Shown here one piece after another: positions 8,300 through 20,458 of a stretch of 64,000 bases of DNA. The notes under the pieces were generated by a model. That model was not told the DNA's origin and made no database searches. It saw only the letters and a program-made list of their open reading frames with translations. Position numbers and translations under genes: made by a program. The stretch is from Pseudomonadota bacterium (GTDB taxonomy: Bacteria > Pseudomonadota > Gammaproteobacteria > Steroidobacterales > Steroidobacteraceae). Positions within the stretch are counted from its first letter, which is position 1, and each line of letters begins with the position of its first letter. Location: assembly GCA_003242685.1 (NCBI GenBank), contig QGVD01000011.1, positions 1 to 64,000 of the forward strand. The letters are read 5' to 3'.

Positions 8300-8307
8300 G
8301 CCGCGCA

Positions 8308-8416
8308 CTCATCGAGACCGGCTGAGGGAAAGGCCCTTCGACGCCGGGGCAACCGCCAGGCCTAACCAGTCTGGAAAGGTGCCAACTCCTGCGACCTTGC
8401 GAGGTCGACAGATGAG
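8308..8416 (+). ncRNA. SAM-I (S-box) riboswitch aptamer upstream of metX
   Basis: The conserved S-box blocks appear in order: P1 5' strand CTCATC (8308-8313) followed by GAGACCGG, the kink-turn segment GCTGAGGGA, GGGGCAACC (pseudoknot partner), a P3 stem CCAG/CTGG, AAGGTGCCAACTCCTGC, and P4 CGACCT-tgcg-AGGTCG (8392-8407). The P1 3' strand GATGAG (8411-8416) pairs exactly with the 5' strand. SAM-I aptamers bind S-adenosylmethionine and switch off methionine genes. Here the downstream genes metX and metB make methionine precursors, as expected. Confidence 0.93.
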
Positions 8417-8489
8417 CAGTCGCGTAGCCTGCGCTCCGCTCTCGAGCGGGGTAGCACGGATGGGCGCGACAGACCCGCGTGTTGTGCGG

Positions 8490-8536: not shown

Positions 8537-9583
8537 TTGAATCCAGTTTCGGACAAGCTCACGGCCGGCGCGACCGCCGGCGATGCGGTGTCTTCCGCGC
8601 GCGAATCGAGCGTGCGCGAGGGGATCCTCGAGGTTCCGGGCAGGGTGACCCTGCACCACGGTGGAACGCTCGAGGGCGTGCGCATCGCCTGGCGTCTCGT
8701 CGGCCCCTCCGGCGCGCCGGTCATCGCCGCGCTCGGCGGCATCTCGGCCAACCGCCGCGTGTGTCTCACCGAGGACCCGCGCGACAGCTGGTGGTCGGAG
8801 ATCGTGGGACCCGGACGCGCGCTCGACACCGCGCGCTATCGGATCCTGAGCATCGATTACCTGGGAGGCAGCGGCGAGAGCACGGGACCCGTTGCGGGCC
8901 AGACTTTCCCGAGCCTCTCGAGCTACGACCAGGCCGACGCGCTGCTGCGCGTCCTGAATCATCTCGGCCTCAAGTCGCTGCGCGCGTTCGCGGGCGGCTC
9001 GTACGGCGGAATGGTCGGGCTCGCCTTCGCCGAGCGTTATCCCGAGCGGCTGTCGCACCTCATCGTGATCGGCGCGGCCGACAGGGCTCACCCGATGGCG
9101 ACCGCGTGGCGCAGCGTGCAGCGGAACATCGTCCGCTATGCCATCGAAAGGGGACAGCCTGCCGAAGGACTGAAGCTCGCGCGCGCGCTCGCCATGGCGA
9201 CCTACCGCAGCAGCGAGGAGTTCGCCGCGCGCTTCTCCGGAGCACCGACGCGCGCGGGAGACCGCTTCGTGTTCCCGGTCGAGGAATACCTCTTCGCGCG
9301 CGGCGCCGACTACGCGACGCGCTACCGGCCGGAGTCCTTCCTGTGCCTGTCGGAGTCGATCGACCTGCACCGCGTCGACGCCACGCGGATCTTCGTGCCT
9401 ACCACGGCCGTCGCCGTGCGTGAGGACCAGCTCGTGCCGCTCGCGGACATCCGCGCAATGGTCGCGCGCCTTCCCTCGGGTCGCCTGCACGAGATCTCCT
9501 CCGTCTTCGGACACGACGCCTTCCTGAAGGAGCCCGAGCAGTTGCGAGCCATCTTCTCGAGCGCGCTGGGAGAGACGCCATGA
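8537..9583 (+). CDS. metX: Homoserine O-acyltransferase MetX (acetyl- or succinyltransferase)
   Basis: Alpha/beta-hydrolase enzyme (348 residues) that activates homoserine for methionine synthesis. The nucleophile elbow is AGGSYGGMVG with Ser155. The Asp and His of the triad are in REDQLVP and FGHDAF near the C-terminus. It starts with TTG at 8537, seven bases after GGAG. The first ~25 residues are unconserved. In many gamma-proteobacteria MetX proteins use succinyl-CoA (MetXS). With metB following, succinylhomoserine is likely, but the acyl donor cannot be read from sequence alone. Controlled by the SAM riboswitch. Stop overlaps metB (ATGA). Confidence 0.93.
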   Translation: MNPVSDKLTAGATAGDAVSSARESSVREGILEVPGRVTLHHGGTLEGVRIAWRLVGPSGAPVIAALGGISANRRVCLTEDPRDSWWSEIVGPGRALDTARYRILSIDYLGGSGESTGPVAGQTFPSLSSYDQADALLRVLNHLGLKSLRAFAGGSYGGMVGLAFAERYPERLSHLIVIGAADRAHPMATAWRSVQRNIVRYAIERGQPAEGLKLARALAMATYRSSEEFAARFSGAPTRAGDRFVFPVEEYLFARGADYATRYRPESFLCLSESIDLHRVDATRIFVPTTAVAVREDQLVPLADIRAMVARLPSGRLHEISSVFGHDAFLKEPEQLRAIFSSALGETP

Positions 9584-10746
9584 GCGATGCTCCCGATCCC
9601 GTCACGCAGGCCGTGCGCGCCGGCCTGGAAACGTGCGACGTCACCGGTGCGGTCGTTCCGCCGATCCACCTGACCTCCACGTTCGCGTTCCGCGCCTTCG
9701 GCGAGAAGCGCGGCTACGACTACACGCGCTCGGGTAATCCGACGCGCGACCTGCTCGCTCAGGCGCTGGCGGACCTCGAAGGAGGAGCAGGTGCCGTCGT
9801 CACCAGCTCCGGCATGTCGGCGGTCACACTGGTGGGTCACCTGCTGACTGCCGGCGCGCGCATCGTCGCACCGCACGACTGCTACGGCGGCTCGTACCGC
9901 CTGTTCGATGCCTGGCGGAGGCGAGGGGAGCTGGAAGTCGAGTTCGTCGACTTCGGCGATCCGGCGGCGCTGAGCGCGGCGCTCCAAAAGCCCGCGGCCA
10001 TGCTGTGGATCGAGACGCCGAGCAATCCGCTCCTGCGCGTCACCGACATCGCCGCCTGCGCAGAGCTCGGCCGCCGCGCCGGCGCGCTCGTCGTGGTGGA
10101 CAACACCTTCCTCTCGCCCGGCTGGCAGCGGCCGCTGGCGCTCGGCGCGGACATCGTCGTGCACTCGACGACGAAGTACCTCAACGGACACAGCGACGTC
10201 GTCGGCGGCGCGGTGATCGCGCGCGAGAAGTCCCACTACGAGCAGCTCGTGTGGTGGGCCAACTGTCTCGGCGTGACCGGCGCGCCGTTCGACAGCTTCC
10301 TCACGCTGCGCGGACTGCGCACTCTCCATGCCCGTCTCGAATGCCACGGCCGCAATGCTCAGGCGATCGCGGAGTACCTCGCCGGGCAGCCGGGTGTCGC
10401 ACGCGTCTACTACCCCGGGCTGCCGACGCATCCGGGGCACGAGATCGCACGGCGTCAGCAGACCGGTTTCGGCGGCATCGTCACGTTCGAGCTGCGCGGC
10501 GGGCTCGAGGCGGTCCGCGCCTTCGTGAAAGGGCTGCGGTACTTCTCGCTCGCCGAGTCGCTGGGTGGCGTGGAGAGTCTCATCGCGCATCCTGCCACGA
10601 TGACGCACGCCGCGATGGACCCCGAAGCACGGCGCAGGGCAGGGCTGGTCGACGGACTGCTGCGGCTGTCCGTGGGCATCGAGGCGCTGGACGATCTGCG
10701 CAACGATCTGGCCGCAGGACTCGAGCGGGCCCGGGCGGTTGCCTGA
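9580..10746 (+). CDS. metB: Cystathionine gamma-synthase MetB
   Basis: PLP enzyme (388 residues) that condenses O-succinyl- (or acetyl-) homoserine with cysteine to form cystathionine. Motifs are YTRSGNPTRD near residue 50, TSSGMSA at 76-81 and HSTTKYLNGHSD with PLP Lys199. The GVTGAPFDSFLTLRGLRTL segment resembles E. coli MetB more than the sulfhydrylases MetY/MetZ, though direct sulfhydrylation is a possible side role. Co-transcribed with metX through a four-base overlap, so under the same riboswitch. Confidence 0.92.
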   Translation: MSDAPDPVTQAVRAGLETCDVTGAVVPPIHLTSTFAFRAFGEKRGYDYTRSGNPTRDLLAQALADLEGGAGAVVTSSGMSAVTLVGHLLTAGARIVAPHDCYGGSYRLFDAWRRRGELEVEFVDFGDPAALSAALQKPAAMLWIETPSNPLLRVTDIAACAELGRRAGALVVVDNTFLSPGWQRPLALGADIVVHSTTKYLNGHSDVVGGAVIAREKSHYEQLVWWANCLGVTGAPFDSFLTLRGLRTLHARLECHGRNAQAIAEYLAGQPGVARVYYPGLPTHPGHEIARRQQTGFGGIVTFELRGGLEAVRAFVKGLRYFSLAESLGGVESLIAHPATMTHAAMDPEARRRAGLVDGLLRLSVGIEALDDLRNDLAAGLERARAVA

Positions 10747-10810: not shown

Positions 10811-11878
10811 TCAGAGCTTCTCGATCTCGGCGAGCACGGCGTCACCGGCTTCGCGCGTCGTGAACGCGCGTGCGTCTGGCGCGGCGATGTCGCGCGTGCG
10901 TGCTCCGGCGTCGATGGCTCGCGCGACCGCGGTCTCCAGGCCAGCCGCTTCGTCCACGAGCTCCAGCGAATGCCGCAGCAGGAGCGCCACGCTCAGGATG
11001 GTGCCGTAGGGATTCGCGATGCCCTGGCCGGCGATGTCGGGCGCGGAACCGTGGATGGGCTCGTAGAGTCCCCGCCGGCCATCGCCGAGCGAGGCGGAAG
11101 GCAGCAGGCCCAGTGAGCCGGCGAGCATCGCCGCCTCGTCCGTGAGAATGTCGCCGAACATGTTCTCCGTGAGGAGTACGTCGAAGTCGCGCGGGCGGCG
11201 GATGAGGTGCATCGCCGTGGAGTCGACCAGCGCGTGCTCGATCGTGACGTCCGGGAACTCACTGCGCACGACGCGCTCGGCCACCTCGCGCCACAGGCGC
11301 GAGGTCTCGAGGACGTTCGACTTGTCGATCGACGTGATCTTCCGGCGCCGTGCGCGCGCGAGGCGACCGGCAACCCGCGTGATGCGTTCGATCTCCGCCA
11401 CGGAATACGTGCAGACGTCCGTGGCACGCTCGGCGTCGCGCGTTTTCTCGCCGAAGTAGATGCCGCCCGTCAGCTCGCGCACGAAGACGAGATCGACTCC
11501 CGTGACGACCTCCGGCTTGAGGGTGGTGGCGTCCACCAGCGCCGGATGAACGGCCACGGGACGCAGATTCGCGTACACGCCGAGCTCGCGGCGCAGCCGC
11601 AGGAGCCCTGCCTCCGGCCGCACCTTCGCGTCAGGCGCGGACCAGCGCGGACCGCCGATCGCGCCGAGCAGGACCGCATCGGCGGTGAGGCACGCACGCA
11701 GCGTTTCCTCGGGCAGAGGATCGCCGAAGCGATCGATCGCGACGCCGCCGAAGGGGAGCTCGAGAAGCTCAAAGTCGTGGCGGAACTTCTCCGCGATCGC
11801 CTGCAGGCAGCGCACGCCCTCGGCGACTACTTCAGGACCGACGCCGTCGCCTCCCAGCACCGCGATACGCGCCTTCAT
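10811..11878 (-). CDS. leuB: 3-isopropylmalate dehydrogenase LeuB
   Basis: NAD-dependent oxidative decarboxylation of 3-isopropylmalate to 2-oxoisocaproate (355 residues). Family motifs are the [11 protein letters not shown] start, [17 protein letters not shown] substrate loop, DKSNVLETS, and [13 protein letters not shown] near the C-terminus, which binds NAD. Last gene of the ilv-leu operon. ATG overlaps the leuD stop (ATGA). Confidence 0.97.
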
Positions 11879-12456
11879 GCCGCGCTCCGCCGCCTCTCGT
11901 AGGCCTCGATCTCGGTCTTCCTGCCGAGGAGGAAACCGAGCTCGTCGATGCCGTTCAACAGGCAGTAGCGTGCGAACGCCTCGATGGGGAAGCGGACCTC
12001 GGTGCCGTTCGGCAGCGCGAGCGTCGTGCGCTCGAGATCGATGGTGAGCTCGACGCCGGGATTGGCGAGGAGCCAGGCGCTCGTCGCCTCGTCGACGGTC
12101 ACCGGCAGGAGCCCGTTCTTGAGCGCGTTGTTGCGGAAGATGTCCGCGAATTCCGTGCTGATGACCGCGCGCAGACCGTAGTCGACCAGCGCCCAGGGCG
12201 CATGCTCGCGCGAGGAGCCGCAGCCGAAGTTACGGCCCGCGACGAGGATCGCGCAGCCCTGCGCTTCGGGACGGTTCAGCACGAAATCCGGGTTCGGCTG
12301 ACCCTGCGCGTCGTAGCGCCAGTCGGCGAAGAGCTGCCTGCCTAGGCCTTCCTTCGTCGTGGTGCGCAGGAAGCGGGCAGGGATGATCTGGTCAGTGTCG
12401 ATGTTGTCGACGGGAAGGACGACGGTGCGCGAACGGATGATTCGGATCGGTTCCAT
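11875..12456 (-). CDS. leuD: 3-isopropylmalate dehydratase small subunit LeuD
   Basis: Small subunit (193 residues) of isopropylmalate isomerase, pairing with LeuC. The swivelling domain has the conserved [14 protein letters not shown] near the N-terminus and [15 protein letters not shown], which contacts substrate. It follows leuC after a 21-base gap. Confidence 0.97.
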
Positions 12457-12477: not shown

Positions 12478-13890
12478 TTACGCGTCGAGCAGCTCGCGGG
12501 GATCAGTGATGCGGCCGCGTACGGCCGAGGCCGCCGCGGTGAGGGGACTCGCGAGGAGCGTCCGTGCGCCGGCCCCCTGGCGGCCCTCGAAGTTGCGGTT
12601 GCTCGTGCTGAGCGAGTAGCGGCCGCGCTCCACCGTATCGCCGTTCATGCCGATGCACATGGAGCAGCCCGATTCGCGCCACTCCGCGCCTGCCTCGATG
12701 AAGATGCGGTGCAGACCCTCGGCTTCCGCCTGCCGCTTCACCTGCTGCGAGCCCGGCACCACGAGCATCTGCACGCCGCGAGCGATGCGCCGCCCGCGCA
12801 GCACCTGAGCGGCCGCGCGCAGGTCGGAAAGGCGCGCGTTCGTGCAGCTTCCGACGAAGACGACGTCGATCGGACGGTCCTTGATGGGCGCACCCGGCTC
12901 GAAGCCCATGTACTCGAGCGCCTTGGCGAACATCGGATCGTCGCGCCGGTCCGGGATGGAGCCGGTGATCGGCACGACCATGCCAGGATTGGTGCCGTAC
13001 GTGATCATCGGCTCGAGCGTCGCGGCGTCGATGTCGACCTCGCGGTCGAAGCGCGCGCCCGGATCCGAGGGAAGCTGCTTCCAGCGCTCCAGCGCCGCTT
13101 CCCAGGCCCCGCCCTTCGGCGCGCGAGGCGTCGCGGCCAGATAGGCGAACGTCGTCTCGTCCGGCGCGATCATGCCGGCACGCGCGCCTGCTTCGATCGA
13201 CATGTTGCAGATCGTCATGCGCCCGTCCATGTCGAGCGCACGCACGGCTTCGCCGCGGTACTCGATGACGTGTCCCGTGCCGCCCGCGACGCCGATCTTC
13301 CCGATGATCGCGAGGATGAGGTCCTTTGCCGTGACGCCCGGGCGGAGCCGGTTCGCGACGTTCACGGCCAGCGTGCGCGGCTTGCGCTGCAGGAGGCATT
13401 GAGTCGCGAAGACGTGCCCGACCTCGGTCGTGCCGATGCCGAAGGCGAGGGCGCCGAACGCGCCGTGCGTGCTCGTGTGACTGTCGCCGCACACGATGGT
13501 CTTGCCCGGCTGCGTGAGGCCGAGCTCCGGGCCGATGATGTGCACGATTCCGCGCTGGTCGTGCCGGAGGTCGAGGAGCTCGATGCCGAACTCGCGGCAG
13601 TTCTTCTCGAGCTCGCGGATCTGCTTCGCCGCCGACTCGAGCGCGATGGGCGCGCCGCCGAAGATCTGCTCGGTACGCGTCGGCGTCGAGTGATCCATCG
13701 TGGCGAAGGTGAGATCGGGGCGGCGGACCGGCAGGCCGCGCTCCCTGAGCAGAGAGAACGCCTGCGGCGAAGTGACCTCGTGGATGAGGTGCAGGTCGAT
13801 GTAGAGCACCGCCGGCGTATCGGGGGTCTCGGGAACGACCTCGTGGGCCTCCCAGACCTTCTCGAACATCGTCTTCGGTTGTGCAGTCAA
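12478..13890 (-). CDS. leuC: 3-isopropylmalate dehydratase large subunit LeuC
   Basis: Aconitase-family [4Fe-4S] enzyme subunit that isomerises 2- to 3-isopropylmalate. The 470-residue product has [20 protein letters not shown] and iron-sulfur cysteines in VGSCTNAR and CSMCIGMN. I chose TTG at 13890. It has GAGGA five bases before it, and the sequence L-T-A-Q aligns with the M-T-A-K start of homologs. An ATG at 13869 (MFEKVWEAH) is the alternative. Confidence 0.95.
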
Positions 13891-13979: not shown

Positions 13980-14939
13980 CTAGCCTGCGCTGGCGGCTCG
14001 CGGTGCCGACATGTCGACGTAGTCGAGCCAGCCCCACTCGTCGGGCGTCTTTCCGGTGAAGAGTCCGAAGAACGCGGCCTGGAGGCTCTCGGTGACCGGC
14101 CCGCGACGGCCGTTCCCGACCGGAATGCCGTCGACGGAGCGGATCGGAGTGATCTCCGCCGCCGTCCCCGTGAAGAAGGCCTCGTCGGCGAGGTAGAGAA
14201 GCTCGCGCGGAATGGCGCACTCGCGCACCTCGAGCCCCCGCTCGCGAGCGAGCCGGATGACGGTGTCGCGGGTGATACCGCCGAGCACGGAATGCGCGAG
14301 CGCAGGCGTGAGCAGCACGCCGTCCTTCACGAGGAAGATGTTCTCGCCGGAGCCTTCGCTCAGCGTGCCGTCGGGCGCGAGCCCGATGCCCTCCGTGAAA
14401 CCGAGCCGCCGTGCCTCGTGCGCGATGAGCTGGCTCGAGAGGTAGTTGCCGCCGGCCTTCGCGAGGGCCGGCAGCGTGTTCGGCGCGACCCGGTTCCAGG
14501 AAGAGACGCACACGTCGACGCCGGCTTCCTCGCTCTCGTGGCCGAGGTACTTGCCCCATTCCCACGCGGCGATCGCCACCTCGGTGGGCGGCTCGTTCTT
14601 CGGCGCCACGCCGATCTCACCGTAGCCGCGGAAGGCGATGGGCCGGATGTAGGCGCCACGGTTCAGCTTGTTCGCCGCGATCACCTCCCGGCATGCGTCG
14701 TTGATCTGCTCCTGCGTGAACGGAATGGTGATCCTGTAGATCTTCGCGGAGTCGAACATGCGGCGCGTGTGGTCGCGCAGGCGGAAGATCGCGACACCGC
14801 GCGGCGTCTCGTAGGCGCGCAGACCCTCGAATACCGAGGAGCCGTAGTGCAGGGCGTGCGAGAGCACGTGCACCGTAGCCTTCTCCCAGGGCACGAGCTT
14901 GCCGTTGAACCAGATGTAGGGTGTCGCCGGAATGGGCAT
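13980..14939 (-). CDS. ilvE: Branched-chain amino acid aminotransferase IlvE
   Basis: Fold-type IV PLP transaminase (319 residues) for the last step of valine, isoleucine and leucine synthesis. PLP Lys161 lies in [13 protein letters not shown], matching Lys160 of E. coli Ilv[15 protein letters not shown] and the [10 protein letters not shown] phosphate-binding segment are present. It sits between leuA and leuC, so the leu enzymes and the final transaminase are made together. Confidence 0.95.
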
Positions 14940-14957: not shown

Positions 14958-16541
14958 TCAGACGGCCGCCTGCGCCGCGCGCTCGGCACCGCTGCGCTCG
15001 TCGCGCCCGCGCGAGCCGGCCTGGTTCGCGAGCTCGATGCGGTTGATGACGTCGAGGAATGCGCGGGTGCTCGATTCCACGATGTTCGTGCTGACGCTCG
15101 AGCCGTGGTACGTGCGCTGATTGTACTCCACGTATACCGTGGCCTCGCCCTGGGCATCCTCGCCCTCCGTGACGCCGCGCACCTCGAACTTGCGCAGCAC
15201 CACGTCGATGCCGGTCGCCGCCTCGATGGCCTTGAATGCCGCGTCCACGGGCCCGTCGCCCTGCGCGGTGCGCTCGACGCTGCGCCCGTCCACGTGCTGC
15301 AGCCGGACGTAGGCCTCCGCCGGCGACCGGCTGTCCGTCACGGTGCGGAGCTCCGCGAGGGTCCACGGGCCGTCCGCGCCGTTCTCGACGCGCAGCACCA
15401 GCGCCTCGATGTCGCCGTCGAAGAGCTCCTTCTTCTTGTCCGCGAGCGCCTTGAACTCCTCGAACACGCGGTTGAACTCCGCATCGTCGAGCTCGAAGCC
15501 GAGCTCCTTGATCCGCTGACGGAGCGCGTGGCGACCGCTGTGCTTGCCCAGGATGAGGTGACTGCGGGTCAGACCCACGTCCTCGGGACGCATGATCTCG
15601 TACGTCGAGTGATGCCTGAGCATGCCGTGCTGATGGATGCCGGACTCGTGGGCGAAAGCGTTCTCGCCGACGATCGCCTTGTTGCGCGGGATCGGCATGC
15701 CCGTGATGCTCGATACCAGGCGCGAGGTCGGGTACAGGCGCGTCGTCTGGATGTTCGTGCGCACGTTGAAGAACGCCTCGCGGGTCTTGAGGGCCATCAC
15801 GACCTCCTCGAGCGAGCAGTTGCCCGCGCGCTCGCCGATGCCGTTGATCGTGCACTCGATCTGCCGGGCGCCCGCGACGACGGCCGTCAGGCTGTTCGCG
15901 ACCGCCATGCCGAGATCGTCGTGACAGTGCACCGAGAGGGTCACGCCCTCGATGCCGCGCACGTTCTTGCGCAGGTAGCGGAAGACCTCCGCGAACTCGT
16001 CGGGCACCGTGTAGCCGACGGTGTCCGGAATGTTGACGGTGGTCGCGCCCGCCTCGATGACGGCCTCCACCACCTGCGCGAGGAACTCGAGCTCGGTGCG
16101 CGAGGCGTCCTCGGGCGAGAATTCGACGTCGTCGCAGAACTCGCGCGCGATGCGTACGCCTTCGACCGCGCGGCGGACGATCTCTTCCTGCGCCATGTTG
16201 AGCTTGTACTGCCGGTGGATGGCGCTCGTGGCGAGGAAGACGTGGATGCGACGGCGCGGCGCGTCCGCCAGCGCCTTCGCGGCGAGCTCGATGTCCGAGC
16301 GGTTGCAGCGGGCGAGGCCGCAGATGATCGGGCCGTGCACCTCGCGCGCCACGGCGTTGACCGCTTCCCAGTCACCGCGCGAAGCCGCCGGGAATCCGGC
16401 CTCGATGACGTCGACGCCAAGCTCGGCGAGCGCCCGCGCCACCCGGAGCTTCTCCGGCTGAGTCATGCTGCAGCCCGGCGACTGTTCGCCGTCGCGCAGG
16501 GTCGTATCGAAGATCAGCACACGGTCGGGGTTCGGAGCCAT
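14958..16541 (-). CDS. leuA: 2-isopropylmalate synthase LeuA
   Basis: Condenses acetyl-CoA with 2-oxoisovalerate, the first committed step to leucine. The 527-residue protein has an HMGL-like TIM barrel at the N-terminus with FDTTLRDGEQSPG, the metal-binding HCHDDLG, and GIGERAGNCSLEEV. The C-terminal ~140 residues are the LeuA dimer domain that normally carries leucine feedback inhibition. A variable tail follows IELANQ. It lies 12 bases after the threonine dehydratase stop. Confidence 0.96.
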   Translation of the reverse strand: MAPNPDRVLIFDTTLRDGEQSPGCSMTQPEKLRVARALAELGVDVIEAGFPAASRGDWEAVNAVAREVHGPIICGLARCNRSDIELAAKALADAPRRRIHVFLATSAIHRQYKLNMAQEEIVRRAVEGVRIAREFCDDVEFSPEDASRTELEFLAQVVEAVIEAGATTVNIPDTVGYTVPDEFAEVFRYLRKNVRGIEGVTLSVHCHDDLGMAVANSLTAVVAGARQIECTINGIGERAGNCSLEEVVMALKTREAFFNVRTNIQTTRLYPTSRLVSSITGMPIPRNKAIVGENAFAHESGIHQHGMLRHHSTYEIMRPEDVGLTRSHLILGKHSGRHALRQRIKELGFELDDAEFNRVFEEFKALADKKKELFDGDIEALVLRVENGADGPWTLAELRTVTDSRSPAEAYVRLQHVDGRSVERTAQGDGPVDAAFKAIEAATGIDVVLRKFEVRGVTEGEDAQGEATVYVEYNQRTYHGSSVSTNIVESSTRAFLDVINRIELANQAGSRGRDERSGAERAAQAAV

Positions 16542-16553
16542 GGTCGTTCCTCG

Positions 16554-17642
16554 TCAGGATCGGATGCCGTATTCCATGTCGGCGAGCGCTTCGGTGAGCT
16601 GCGCGCCGCGCGGCTGCTCGGCGATGAGCTCGCCGTGCAGGATCTTGAGAAGCAGGTTCGACGTGATGTTGCCACCGGAGAGCACGACGCCGACGCGCTG
16701 CCCCTTGATGCGCCGGTGGAGCCGCATCGCGCCTGCGAGCGCGGCGGCGCCTGCGCCTTCGGCGAGCTGGTGCAGCGTCTCCGCCAGGCATCGGATCGCT
16801 CCCACGAGCTCCGCCTCGGAGACTTCCACCATGTCGTCGAGCACGTCGCGCAGGATCGCCACGGTCTCGGGCGAGGGCACGCGGGCGGCGAGGCCGTCGG
16901 CGATCGTCTCGCCGACCGGATACTCGCGCATCTCACCGGTGCGCCAGGCGCGCGCCAGAGCCGGCGCAGCGGCGCTCTGCACGCCGACGATGCGGGTGTG
17001 GGGCGACAGCGCCTTGAAGACGAGCCCCATTCCTGCGGCCAGGCTTCCTCCGCCGACGGGCACGAACACGGTGTCGAGCGGCTGGATGGCCTGGTCGAGC
17101 ATCTCGAGCGCCACGGTCGCGTAGCCCGCGATGAGCTTCGGCTCGCGCGACGGGTGGACCGCCATTGCGCCCGTGCGGTTGGCGTGCTCCACCGCCGCGT
17201 CCCATGCCGAGTCGAAGTCGTGACCGGCGACACGGACCTCGGCACCGAGCGCCGCGATGGCCGCGTTCTTGTCGGGGTTGTTGCCCGTCGGAACGAAGAC
17301 CGTGCACGCCACGCCGTGACGCCGGGCGGCGTACGCCAGCGACTGCCCGTGATTGCCGCGCGTCGCGGTGACGAGCCCGCGCGCCTTCTGCTCGGCGGAC
17401 AGGGATGCCAGGAAATTGAGACCGCCGCGCAGCTTGAACGAGCCGAGCGGCACGGCGTTCTCGAGCTTCACGTGCACCTCGGCGCCGACGCGGCGCGAGA
17501 GCAGGGGATGGGCCACGAGCGGCGTCGGAGTGAGCTCGCGTGCGAGCAGGCGGCGCGCCGCGACGATGTCGTCGAAGTGCACCTCGCCGAAGCGGCGGTC
17601 CGTCATCGGCGTCGAGTGGTAGATCTGCAGCTCAATCGGCAT
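16554..17642 (-). CDS. Threonine dehydratase (short, no ACT domain)
   Basis: PLP fold-type II enzyme (362 residues) that deaminates threonine to 2-oxobutyrate, the entry to isoleucine. PLP Lys70 is in LGSFKLRGG, and the glycine loop is PVGGGSLAAG. It ends without the C-terminal ACT regulatory domains of E. coli IlvA, so it resembles the short TdcB-type enzyme. Isoleucine feedback through ACT domains is therefore not expected. GAAGGAG six bases before ATG 17642 decides the start. The position between ilvC and leuA points to a biosynthetic role. Confidence 0.9.
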   Translation of the reverse strand: MPIELQIYHSTPMTDRRFGEVHFDDIVAARRLLARELTPTPLVAHPLLSRRVGAEVHVKLENAVPLGSFKLRGGLNFLASLSAEQKARGLVTATRGNHGQSLAYAARRHGVACTVFVPTGNNPDKNAAIAALGAEVRVAGHDFDSAWDAAVEHANRTGAMAVHPSREPKLIAGYATVALEMLDQAIQPLDTVFVPVGGGSLAAGMGLVFKALSPHTRIVGVQSAAAPALARAWRTGEMREYPVGETIADGLAARVPSPETVAILRDVLDDMVEVSEAELVGAIRCLAETLHQLAEGAGAAALAGAMRLHRRIKGQRVGVVLSGGNITSNLLLKILHGELIAEQPRGAQLTEALADMEYGIRS

Positions 17643-17677: not shown

Positions 17678-18673
17678 TCAGGCGCGCTTGTCCTCCAGCC
17701 ACGGCATGCGGGCACGCAGCGCGGCGCCCACCTTCTCGATCGGATGCTTGAGGTCCTTCTCGAGGAGCTTGCGGTAGTTCTTGCGTCCCGTCCGGTTCTC
17801 CTCGATCCACTGCCGGGCGAACTTGCCGTCCTGGATCTCCTTGAGGATGCGCCGCATCTCCTTCTTGGTGCGCTCGTTCACCACGCGCGGGCCGCGCGTG
17901 AGATCGCCGTACTTGGCGGTCTCGCTGATGAACTCGTGCATCTTGCGCAGGCCCCCTTCGTGCAGCAGGTCGACGATGAGCTTGAGCTCGTGGAGGCACT
18001 CGTAGTAGGCGACCTCGGGCTGATAGCCGGCCTCGACGAGCGTCTCGAAGCCCTTCACGACGAGCTCGGTGGCGCCCCCGCACAGCACGGCCTGCTCGCC
18101 GAAGAGGTCGGTCTCCGTCTCCTCGGCGAACGTGGTTTCGAGCACGCCTCCGCGCGTGCCGCCGATGCCGTCCGCGTAGGCGAGCGCCTTCGCTTTCGCC
18201 TTGCGGGTCGCGTTCTGCGCGACGGCGAGGAGGCACGGCACGCCCCGGCCCTGCTGGTACTGACGGCGCACGAGATCACCGGGACCCTTCGGTGCGATCA
18301 GCACCACGTCGAGGTCCTTGCGCGGCTTGATCTGCTTGAAGTGGATGTTGAATCCGTGTGCGAAGAGGAGGGTGGCGCCCTTCTTGATGTTCTTCTCGAT
18401 CGACTCGTAGAGCTCCTTCTGGGCGAGGTCGGGCACCAGCATCGCGATCAGATCGGCGCCGGCCACCGCCTCGGCCGGCTCGGCGACCGCGAGCCCGTCG
18501 CGCTTCGCCTTCTTCCAGCCGGTGCCGCCCTTGCGCACACCCACCACGACGTCGAAGCCGCTGTCCTTCAGGTTGAGCGCGTGCGCGCGCCCCTGGCTGC
18601 CGTAGCCGAGCACCGCGATCCGGGCCCCCCGCAGGGCTTTCTTGTCGACGTCTTTCCGCGAATACAAACGCAT
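17678..18673 (-). CDS. ilvC: Ketol-acid reductoisomerase IlvC (class I)
   Basis: NADPH-dependent isomeroreductase (331 residues) that converts acetolactate or acetohydroxybutyrate to the dihydroxy acids. The Rossmann domain has [15 protein letters not shown], and the knotted domain has ETDLFGEQ and [15 protein letters not shown] with the metal-binding acids. First structural gene after the attenuator. Normally acetolactate synthase genes follow ilvC in related operons; here a threonine dehydratase follows directly. Confidence 0.97.
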
Positions 18674-18723: not shown

Positions 18724-18763
18724 AAAAAACCCCGCAGCGGCTGCGTTGCCGGTGCGGGGTTTT
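18724..18763 (-). terminator. Intrinsic terminator of the ilvC leader (attenuator)
   Basis: On the minus strand AAAACCCCGCA pairs with TGCGGGGTTTT around a 16-base loop, ending in six T (18729-18724). It lies 51 bases before the ilvC ATG, after the leader peptide gene. Segment 18748-18758 of its 5' arm and loop is exactly complementary to the upstream leader segment 18811-18821, so an antiterminator hairpin can replace it. Confidence 0.9.
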
Positions 18764-18792
18764 CGGTGTCTTCGCTCGCTCGGGCCCGTCGA

Positions 18793-18921
18793 TCAGGCGC
18801 GCGCGCGCGTCCCGCACCGGCCGCTCCTAAGGAGCAGCAGCCCGAGGGGAAGTACGAGCAGTCCGAGCGACGCAGCATGTGCTGCATCGGTCGCTACGGT
18901 CTGGACTGCGTCGTAGTTCAC
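18793..18921 (-). CDS. Leucine-rich leader peptide of the ilv-leu operon
   Basis: A 42-codon reading frame from GTG 18921 to TGA 18793. Residues 19-31 read LGLLVLPLGLLLL: nine leucine and one valine codon in thirteen. The leucine codons CTGCTGCTCC form the 5' arm of a hairpin with GGAGCGGC just downstream. A ribosome stalled there would free 18811-18821 to pair with the terminator arm. This is the classic architecture of amino-acid attenuation. The GTG start has no clear ribosome binding site, so the exact N-terminus is uncertain. The peptide itself needs no other function. Confidence 0.8.
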   Translation of the reverse strand: MNYDAVQTVATDAAHAASLGLLVLPLGLLLLRSGRCGTRARA

Positions 18922-18952
18922 CGGTAGTGCGGGTAAGGTTTCGGTCTGCCGG

Positions 18953-18982
18953 ATGTCATCACAACCATCGCGAGTTTGTCAA
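18953..18982 (-). promoter_or_regulatory. Candidate promoter of the ilv-leu operon
   Basis: A consensus -35 box TTGACA on the minus strand (18982-18977), followed 18 bases later by the weaker TGACAT (18958-18953). Transcription from there would start about 25 bases before the leader peptide GTG. Confidence 0.5.
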
Positions 18983-19033
18983 CGAAGTGTCGCGGCCCGC
19001 GCCAATCCGCGCGCGAAATCCGTTAAGCTTTCC

Positions 19034-20458
19034 ATGCCTTCCCCGTCGAGCGTCCATCGCGTGTTTCCTGAAACCGCCCTGACTCGCGAGGCGGCAGACA
19101 GCCTGCCTCTCTGGCTCGTGACCGAGGCCGAACTGGCCTCGTGGCTCGCCGCGCAGCCGCCGGCGACCGCGGCATGGGTGCGCGCCAACGGCTTTCAGGC
19201 GGAGCGGCATCGCGTGCTCGTGCTCCCGGACGCGAACGGAGAGATCGCCGGTGCCGTTGCGGGGCTCGGTGCGCTGCGTCAGCTGGATGACCTGCGGCTC
19301 TGGCACGGGGCGGGGCTCGTCGATCGGCTCCCGCCGCGGCGGTTCCGTCTGGAAACCGCCCTGCCGCCGACCGCGGCGACACACCTCGTGCTCGGATGGC
19401 TGACCGGTACGTACCGCTACAACCGGTTCCGTTCGAACCAGCCGACGCCGCGCGCGACGCTCGTGGTGCCGGGGGCCGCGGACCTCGCGTTCGCCGAGGC
19501 TGCGGCCGCGGCCACTGCTTTCGCGCGCGACCTCATCAATACTCCGGCGAATGAGCTCGGTCCCGCCGACCTCGCCGATGTGGCGCGCGACCTCGCAGTG
19601 CGCGCCGGGGCGCGGTGCAGGGTCATTGCAGGGGACGAGCTGGCGAAGCAGGGCTTTGCGCTCATCCACGCCGTGGGCGCCGGCAGTCCTCGTGCACCCT
19701 GTCTCATCGACCTGCGCTGGGGTGAGGACGATGCACCGAAAGTGAGCATCGTCGGCAAGGGCGTGTGCTTCGACAGCGGCGGGCTCGACATCAAGCCTGC
19801 GACCGCGATGCTCCTCATGAAGAAGGACATGGGCGGCGCAGCGTGTGCGCTCGCGCTCGCGCAGCTCCTGATGCATCTCGAGACGCGCGTGCGGCTCCGG
19901 CTCCTCATTCCGGCGGTCGAGAACAGCGTGGACGGGCTGTCCTACCGGCCCGGGGACGTGCTGCGTTCGCGCAAGGGGCTCACGGTGGAGATCGGCAACA
20001 CCGACGCCGAAGGCCGCCTGGTGCTCGCCGACGCGCTCGCGGAAGCCGATGCGGAGAAGCCGGATCTGCTCGTCGATCTCGCGACACTCACCGGCGCCGC
20101 GCGCACCGCGCTCGGGCCCGAGCTGCCCGCCGCGTACTCGACGGACGAAGCACTGCTTGCGCAGCTGCGCGCCATCGGCGACGACGAGGCCGACCCCGTA
20201 TGGCCGATGCCCCTCTGGACCGCCTACGACGACGAGCTCTCGAGCCGCGTGGCGGACGTCTGCAACGTCTCCGCATCGCCGTTCGCCGGCTCGATCATCG
20301 GCGCGCTGTTCCTCAAGCGCTTCGTGACCGAAACGCCCAGATGGCTCCATCTCGACATCTACGCCTGGAACGCGAAGGAGCGGCCGGGCCGTCCCGTCGG
20401 TGCCGAGGCCCAGTGCGTCCGTAGCCTCTACAGGCTCATCCGCGCGCGCTGCGAATGA
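19034..20458 (+). CDS. Leucyl aminopeptidase family protein (peptidase M17)
   Basis: Cytoplasmic di-metal aminopeptidase of 474 residues. The C-terminal catalytic domain carries the M17 signature NTDAEGRLVLADAL. Metal-binding residues are in VGKGVCFDSGGLDIKP and KKDMGG. The N-terminal ~150 residues are the variable domain. ATG 19034 was chosen; a longer form from 18953 would run into the ilv promoter region. First gene of an operon divergent from ilvC, coupled by ATGA to a transporter, which suggests amino acid recycling. Confidence 0.9.
   Translation: MPSPSSVHRVFPETALTREAADSLPLWLVTEAELASWLAAQPPATAAWVRANGFQAERHRVLVLPDANGEIAGAVAGLGALRQLDDLRLWHGAGLVDRLPPRRFRLETALPPTAATHLVLGWLTGTYRYNRFRSNQPTPRATLVVPGAADLAFAEAAAAATAFARDLINTPANELGPADLADVARDLAVRAGARCRVIAGDELAKQGFALIHAVGAGSPRAPCLIDLRWGEDDAPKVSIVGKGVCFDSGGLDIKPATAMLLMKKDMGGAACALALAQLLMHLETRVRLRLLIPAVENSVDGLSYRPGDVLRSRKGLTVEIGNTDAEGRLVLADALAEADAEKPDLLVDLATLTGAARTALGPELPAAYSTDEALLAQLRAIGDDEADPVWPMPLWTAYDDELSSRVADVCNVSASPFAGSIIGALFLKRFVTETPRWLHLDIYAWNAKERPGRPVGAEAQCVRSLYRLIRARCE

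Follow-up and report, generated by a model that had tools for sequence, protein, structure and literature searches.

A putative leucine attenuator upstream of an ilvC-leu operon in a Steroidobacteraceae bacterium and its relatives

Results

The window, i.e. the whole stretch of 64,000 nucleotides that was analysed, contains seven genes for branched-chain amino acid synthesis that are read from the minus strand. The first gene of this operon is ilvC, which encodes ketol-acid reductoisomerase (17678-18673; NF004017, 524.7 bits, above the cut-off) and whose ATG is preceded by GGGGAG. It is followed by a threonine dehydratase-like gene of the ilvA/tdcB type (16554-17570, start uncertain; NF004771 above the cut-off, and PF00291), by leuA, which encodes a 2-isopropylmalate synthase of the TIGR00973 type (14958-16541), and by a class IV aminotransferase gene (13980-14939; PF01063), possibly the branched-chain one. 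The genes leuC (12478-13881, start approximate), leuD (11875-12456) and leuB (10811-11878) were all assigned by profile match. Judging from their order and common strand, the seven genes from ilvC to leuB would form one transcript. The ilvB gene of the same genome is located on another contig and ilvD is located in the window on the opposite strand; no clear leader was found before either gene, where the best short upstream frames have 5 Leu/Ile/Val codons, out of 13 in one case and out of 12 in the other.

Upstream of ilvC, a -35-like hexamer TTGACA (18977-18982, minus strand) is separated by 18 nt from a -10-like hexamer TGACAT (18953-18958, minus strand) with TGTGA just before it, and transcription would start near 18946. 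This promoter layout is conserved in relatives. Under a loose all-parts rule it was found in 37 of 38 genomes (a set that includes the genome of the window), compared to 0.15 expected from mononucleotide shuffles. A sigma-70 scan did not report the TTGACA/TGACAT pair because the second hexamer has no A at position 2. In two relatives (G062 and G076; loci L114 and L121), the leader ATG upstream of ilvC is located at about the expected transcription start, and these leaders may be leaderless mRNAs. A divergent M17 leucyl aminopeptidase-like gene (18953-20458, plus strand) starts over or beside the leader promoter, and a relative of this gene occupies the same place in G003.

The leader peptide frame (18793-18921, minus strand; VNYDAVQTVATDAAHAASLGLLVLPLGLLLLRSGRCGTRARA) has a GTG start, 42 codons and a TGA stop. 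Its presumed regulatory codons, 19 to 31 (18829-18867; LGLLVLPLGLLLL), include nine Leu in thirteen, two of which are the rare CTT that accounts for 2.6% of the 391 Leu codons in ten genes of the window. This was the only 13-codon stretch with at least nine Leu in any of the six frames of the 64-kb window, and the next independent stretch had 8 Leu. The frame lacks Ile codons; of its Val codons, one falls within the Leu run and two come earlier. The peptide is hydrophobic. The GTG is the only in-frame start and shows no Shine-Dalgarno match (+1.9 kcal/mol, compared to -7.6 at the ilvC start). Among 51 genomes, the best in-frame leader start had a median of -3.0 kcal/mol vs -6.9 at ilvC, and -5 kcal/mol was reached by 14 of the leaders vs 50 of the ilvC starts, although some of these best leader starts fall upstream of the promoter. 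As read from the sequence, initiation at the GTG is without help from any Shine-Dalgarno match, and we infer that the leader is translated.

A hairpin, GCTGCTCC-TTA-GGAGCGGC (18820-18838, minus strand; segments 1 and 2), lies over the last Leu codons, with its arms at 18838-18831 and 18827-18820 and a TTA loop. It overlaps by only about 2 nt with the antiterminator 5' strand GCCGGTGCGGG (18821-18811), which also codes for Arg-Cys-Gly of the leader peptide and ends 15 nt before the stop codon. Over 11 nt, GCCGGTGCGGG is the exact reverse complement of CCCGCACCGGC (18758-18748), the antiterminator 3' strand, which lies within the terminator 5' arm and the adjoining side of its loop. An exact complement of 11 nt between this arm and the 70 nt upstream was found in 0 of 2000 dinucleotide shuffles. 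The intrinsic terminator (18724-18759, minus strand) has the arms CCCCGCA (18759-18753) and TGCGGGG (18736-18730), followed by six T (18729-18724). The parts listed in the original prediction, namely a 42-codon leader with nine Leu in thirteen and no Ile codon, a hairpin that involves the Leu codons, an 11-base segment complementary to the terminator 5' arm and loop, and an intrinsic terminator with six T, are thus all present at this locus. Folding of the minus strand, which had been proposed as a check, gave -107.9 kcal/mol for the leader (z -6.0), and 0 of 200 shuffles were as low. In the genome of the window, scanning with model R1 gave 86 bits at the leader site, 37.6 bits for the mirror match and 18.1 bits for the next match; a second copy in this genome was rejected, as R1 was strong at the leader site only.

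Folding was also used to predict the state of the RNA with ribosomes at different positions. Before the terminator 3' arm has been made, stalling at each of the nine Leu codons gave a predicted mean pair probability of 0.946-0.998 for the antiterminator, and for a ribosome at the stop codon, with an assumed footprint, the predicted probability of the terminator was 0.997. The full-length equilibrium fold was the terminator in every state; therefore, antitermination would have to be kinetic. Folding further predicts that the Leu-codon hairpin and the antiterminator can coexist, and the two abut in many relatives. In part of the relatives the hairpin arms are varied yet complementary (GCTGCTCC/GGAGCGGC, TGCTTCT/AGAAGCA and CTGTTG/CAACAG). 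Over 38 genomes the local hairpin was only a little more stable than its shuffles, with a median z of -0.83 (below -1 in 16 and above +1 in 6); the support from the arms is weak in the set as a whole, and these modelled values do not clearly support a conserved protector or competitor. Because of the overlap of about 2 nt and the predicted coexistence, pausing or stacking is a more likely role than protection: the Leu-codon hairpin may be a pause hairpin and, unlike that of the trp paradigm, may leave the terminator unprotected.

The ilvC gene was matched in 140 of 148 related genomes, and the titles of the nearest named ilvC loci include Steroidobacter, Steroidobacteraceae and unclassified Gammaproteobacteria. 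Upstream regions were used for 89 of the 140, 75 from the same family (own genome included) and 14 from the same order; 30 were given as loci and 59 were fetched, at 500 nt each (454 in one). Nine of the 84 same-family matches (G007, G008, G012, G021, G026, G030, G047, G053 and G061) were excluded because they were partial, showed less similarity or lay close to the end of a contig; of the 56 same-order matches, 42 were also excluded. A strict and conservative rule, which required the codon run, a helix of no fewer than 7 pairs and set bounds for three spacings, found all parts in 33 of the 75 same-family genomes. Several of the others had a clear Leu run with another helix or spacing, and others had no run or no terminator. 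The median spacings in the strict-rule genomes, whose ranges are confined by the bounds of the rule itself, were 10 nt from the last Leu codon to the antiterminator, 9 nt from the antiterminator to the stop codon and 31 nt from the stop codon to the terminator. With assumed footprint sizes, a stalled ribosome would leave the antiterminator strand free at these spacings and a ribosome at the stop codon would cover it. In one genus group (g16; loci L138, L139, L149 and L150), the terminator arm is CCCCGCAACGGC and the gap between the leader stop and the terminator is longer, at 56-66 nt.

A terminator pattern was present in 62 of the 89 genomes and absent from 27. In the 62, which were not selected for pairing, the longest exact complement of the arm had a median of 7.5 nt compared to 4.8 in shuffles, and it beat dinucleotide shuffles of the upstream 72 nt at p 0.05 in 36 genomes and at p 0.01 in 25. 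Forty of the 62 were then chosen for short segments and a helix of 7 pairs or more (two were kept by hand), and 39 were aligned. Standard pairs filled 82% of the cells of the antiterminator helix in these 39 rows, compared to 34-49% with slid partners, a share that is partly by construction because the rows were chosen for the helix. Each of the inner seven pairs is formed in 38 or 39 of the 39 rows, and the outer ones are formed less often. Compensatory changes were seen in 4 cells of 3 pairs, for example in G050, where the arm is CCCCGCAGCGGC and the other strand is CTGCGGG in place of GTGCGGG. The covariation score was reached in 0 of 500 column shuffles; a control slid by +3 had many fewer paired cells but 5 compensatory ones, in 4 pairs, and the compensatory evidence for the antiterminator is modest. 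No covariation was found in the terminator stem, whose seven inner pairs are identical in all 39 rows, largely by construction since the rows were picked by the stem pattern.

The core GGTGCGGG is kept although its reading frame differs: many relatives read it as Arg-Cys-Gly, and others as Gly-Ala-Gly. Among the latter are G311, G159 and G419, each with ilvC and an ilvB-like gene at the locus. Where the core is read as Gly-Ala-Gly, the conserved thing, to judge from these sequences, is the RNA and not the peptide. When 369 genomes of the class were scanned with R1, 51 had matches. Among 11 R1 loci that were inspected, five (L288, L289, L292, L295 and L296) combined the core with a leader rich in branched-chain codons ahead of ilvC or leuA, and others had no clear leader.

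The leader frame itself was then compared among relatives. The N-terminal part of the peptide varies widely. Leaders were chosen for the core and an open frame only, and 38 of these 48 had at least 5 Leu in the 15 codons that precede the core. In 33 similar pairs of these 48 leaders, 60 of 118 single-difference codons in the leader frame were synonymous compared to 37.0 expected, while the other two frames gave 27 of 125 (30.3 expected) and 28 of 124 (34.9 expected); the pairs share sequences and are not independent, so that this result is strong but carries no formal probability. The same test on leaders picked for at least 5 Leu gave 60 of 116 synonymous vs 37.2 expected. Furthermore, in 16 of the 34 genomes with the element, the rare CTT made up 28 of 135 leader Leu codons vs 9 of 543 Leu codons in ilvC (Fisher 5e-14). 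By the pattern of these substitutions, the leader frame in relatives is under coding selection over the 15 codons before the core.

For 85 of the 89 genomes, the gene content of the operon could be determined. At least 5 Leu in 13 codons were found in an upstream frame of 54 of the 67 operons with leuA vs 2 of the 18 without it (Fisher 9e-8), leaving 13 leuA-bearing operons with no such run. Operons with ilvB had 5-7 Ile/Val in 13 codons in 5 of 5 leaders, and of the 62 with leuA and without ilvB, 4 reached 5 Ile/Val in 13 and none reached 6. On the ilvC tree there were 7 changes in leuA and 10 changes in leader state; the leader agreed with leuA in 3-4 of 5 supported independent pairs and disagreed in about 0 (p 0.25). 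The association of leuA with the Leu run is suggestive; when shared descent is taken into account, it points in the right direction but is not significant, in an underpowered test. In genus group g15, leuA and the Leu run are both present in G014, G033 and G078; G050 has no operonic leuA and has lost the Leu codons while the antiterminator/terminator pair is kept, and G089 has leuA and no leader. As the Leu run is mostly gone without leuA and Ile/Val codons are added with ilvB, these results support leucine as the signal at the ilvC leader. Five genomes of one genus group (G027, G043, G059, G003 and G084; loci L021, L127, L023, L026 and L132) keep the terminator and have no Leu run. Since G003 and G059 still have an operonic leuA, decay of the leader can precede the loss of leuA.

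None of the 18 genomes without an operonic leuA had a leuA of the TIGR00973 type above the cut-off, and all 18 had a second type (NF002991) elsewhere. In 13 of them, the most Leu-rich short frame upstream of the second-type gene ends in LLLRR, LLLRP or LHLRR; a fourteenth such leader (G006) was seen in the alignment, and G050, G108, G121 and G081 had none. This different, conserved Leu leader lies about 110-230 nt upstream of the second-type leuA in L268, L271-L274, L266, L267 and other loci, and in many loci it is followed by CGCTAGGCGC and GGTCGGCGC...ACAAGACCGG. Of 13 aligned loci, 12 have a TAGATT-like -10 box 6-8 nt upstream of its ATG, and at this spacing the leader may be leaderless. 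No Rfam match was found for it in 10 loci. It resembles the actinobacterial LEU element, but this assignment was rejected because the regions upstream of two actinobacterial leuA genes did not contain the motif.

Discussion

From its sequence and that of its relatives, we are confident that the element is a ribosome-mediated leucine attenuator before the ilvC-ilvA-leuA-aminotransferase-leuC-leuD-leuB operon. The leader and its competing folds very probably turn on the branched-chain amino acid genes when leucine is short. The sensor input would be charged leucyl-tRNA, which would set the expression of all seven genes. When leucine is ample, the ribosome would pass the Leu codons to the stop and cover part of the antiterminator strand, and the terminator would form. 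When leucine is short, the ribosome would stall on the Leu run and leave GCCGGTGCGGG free to pair with the terminator 5' arm as soon as the arm is made, so that RNA polymerase could read on. In the original prediction, conservation in relatives was to be checked and leucine, perhaps with valine, was named as the likely signal of the whole operon. Relatives do keep the Leu frame, the antiterminator/terminator pair, their order and their spacing, and leucine is supported as the signal in that the Leu run tracks leuA and Ile/Val codons track ilvB. Its reading as a leucine attenuator stands for anatomy, conservation and pairing, with two amendments: the hairpin is less likely to be a trp-type protector, given the overlap of about 2 nt, and the leader start has no Shine-Dalgarno match.

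We then considered how such a switch would behave when its leader is not translated. In a variant that is a real possibility, though not the reading we favour, the switch would be on by default: untranslated RNA would be read through, and termination would occur only when a ribosome reaches the stop codon. The Leu-codon hairpin and the antiterminator hardly overlap in the window and abut in many relatives, and in untranslated RNA of the genome of the window, before the 3' arm, the antiterminator had a predicted probability of 0.998 with the hairpin also formed (0.705). Over the 38 genomes, the untranslated antiterminator probability had a median of 0.90 and was at least 0.9 in 19; however, it was 0.5 or less in 10. 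In addition, the antiterminator strand of untranslated RNA was mostly paired before the terminator arm, chiefly with upstream RNA (median accessibility 0.135 in the 38 genomes), and slow refolding could still lead to termination. If the default-on variant is true, expression should rise when the leader is no longer translated, contrary to the trp/leu paradigm. The identity of the signal was weighed in the same way. The operon holds ilvC and an ilvA-like gene and the leader has no Ile codon, which is a point against the leucine attenuator. Joint sensing of leucine and valine would fit the Val codons inside and before the run, as well as several relatives that mix Val or Ile among the Leu codons, with ilvB operons as the consistent case; it is nevertheless unlikely, as the run in the window has 9 Leu vs 1 Val and leuA operons without ilvB rarely carry many Ile/Val codons.

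Two readings would do without an attenuator. A functional small hydrophobic protein encoded by the Leu-rich frame, next to an ordinary, fixed terminator, would account for the coding selection and the hydrophobic peptide, but we consider it very improbable: the N-terminal part is widely variable, Arg-Cys-Gly becomes Gly-Ala-Gly while the RNA is unchanged, and the pairing with the terminator goes beyond shuffles in 36 of 62 genomes. G+C-rich DNA yields many open frames and 13 of the 67 leuA operons have no run of 5 Leu, and yet a Leu-rich frame that precedes a terminator by chance is barely credible here, because the Leu run is unique in the window, because the 11-nt complement was never reached in shuffles and because relatives show both coding selection and pairing. 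Returning to the leucine attenuator, a broader scheme can be drawn from the relatives that is rather doubtful as a whole: a conserved RNA switch core, on by default because its codon hairpin leaves the terminator unprotected, whose sensing codons are rewritten with the operon (Leu with leuA; Ile/Val/Leu with ilvB) and decay where an unlinked leuA of the second type, mostly with its own Leu leader, has taken over. The relatives form a natural series in which the sensor codons and the operon content vary and the RNA core is nearly constant. This series makes it directly testable that the sensed amino acid follows the controlled genes, and it offers a clean test of the need for a protector hairpin.

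The element is a switch of the classic kind and has every structural feature of the leu, ilv and trp attenuators that was tested, the protector hairpin aside. The leu operon attenuator of Escherichia coli and Salmonella (leuL, RF00512) has consecutive Leu codons including rare ones, an antiterminator and a terminator, and controls the leu genes. The ilvC leader is like leuL in all of these points and differs in that it heads an ilvC operon, uses CTT and not CTA as the rare codon, has no Shine-Dalgarno match and scores below the RF00512 threshold. A survey by Vitreschak et al. in 2004 (FEMS Microbiol Lett 234:357) reportedly, by its title, predicts attenuators in proteobacterial amino acid operons, and such an ilvC device may be listed there, e.g. 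in xanthomonads. Among the papers listed, which did not include this survey itself, none was recognised as describing the ilvC leader; therefore, we do not claim that the leader is unpublished. The survey is cited in the excerpts of PMC2965389, PMC5794164 and PMC1262725. For the Salmonella leu attenuator, rare Leu codons (CUA) are discussed as sensitive control codons in an excerpt of PMC1183508. The ilvBNC attenuator of Corynebacterium glutamicum has branched-chain leader codons, a terminator and antiterminator, and a third, anti-antiterminator hairpin, and its start codon is one nucleotide from the transcription start; a change of this codon lowers expression by 80% (excerpt of PMC11857589). 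This start is akin to those of the ilvC leaders here without a Shine-Dalgarno match, and the difference is that the ilvC leader has no clear anti-antiterminator competitor. In Staphylococcus aureus, a leucine-rich attenuator before ilvD of the ilv-leu operon has an Ile/Leu leader peptide and a terminator; the proposed antiterminator pairs with the poly-U tail and there is a putative ribosome binding site, both unlike the ilvC leader (excerpt of PMC5794164).

In Rfam searches at gathering and at E 10, the element matched neither a riboswitch nor a T-box, nor any accepted leader family, and the RF00512 Leu_leader model scored 14.8 bits on the leader compared to its gathering score of 50. The loci of 6 relatives had no gathering matches. 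The element would thus represent a leucine attenuator for an environmental group of Gammaproteobacteria where Rfam gives no match. In the whole window, Rfam gave a single match at the gathering score, a SAM riboswitch (RF00162, 83.4 bits; 8306-8418, plus strand), which lies about 1.2 kb before a gene for a PLP enzyme of Cys/Met metabolism (9580-10746).
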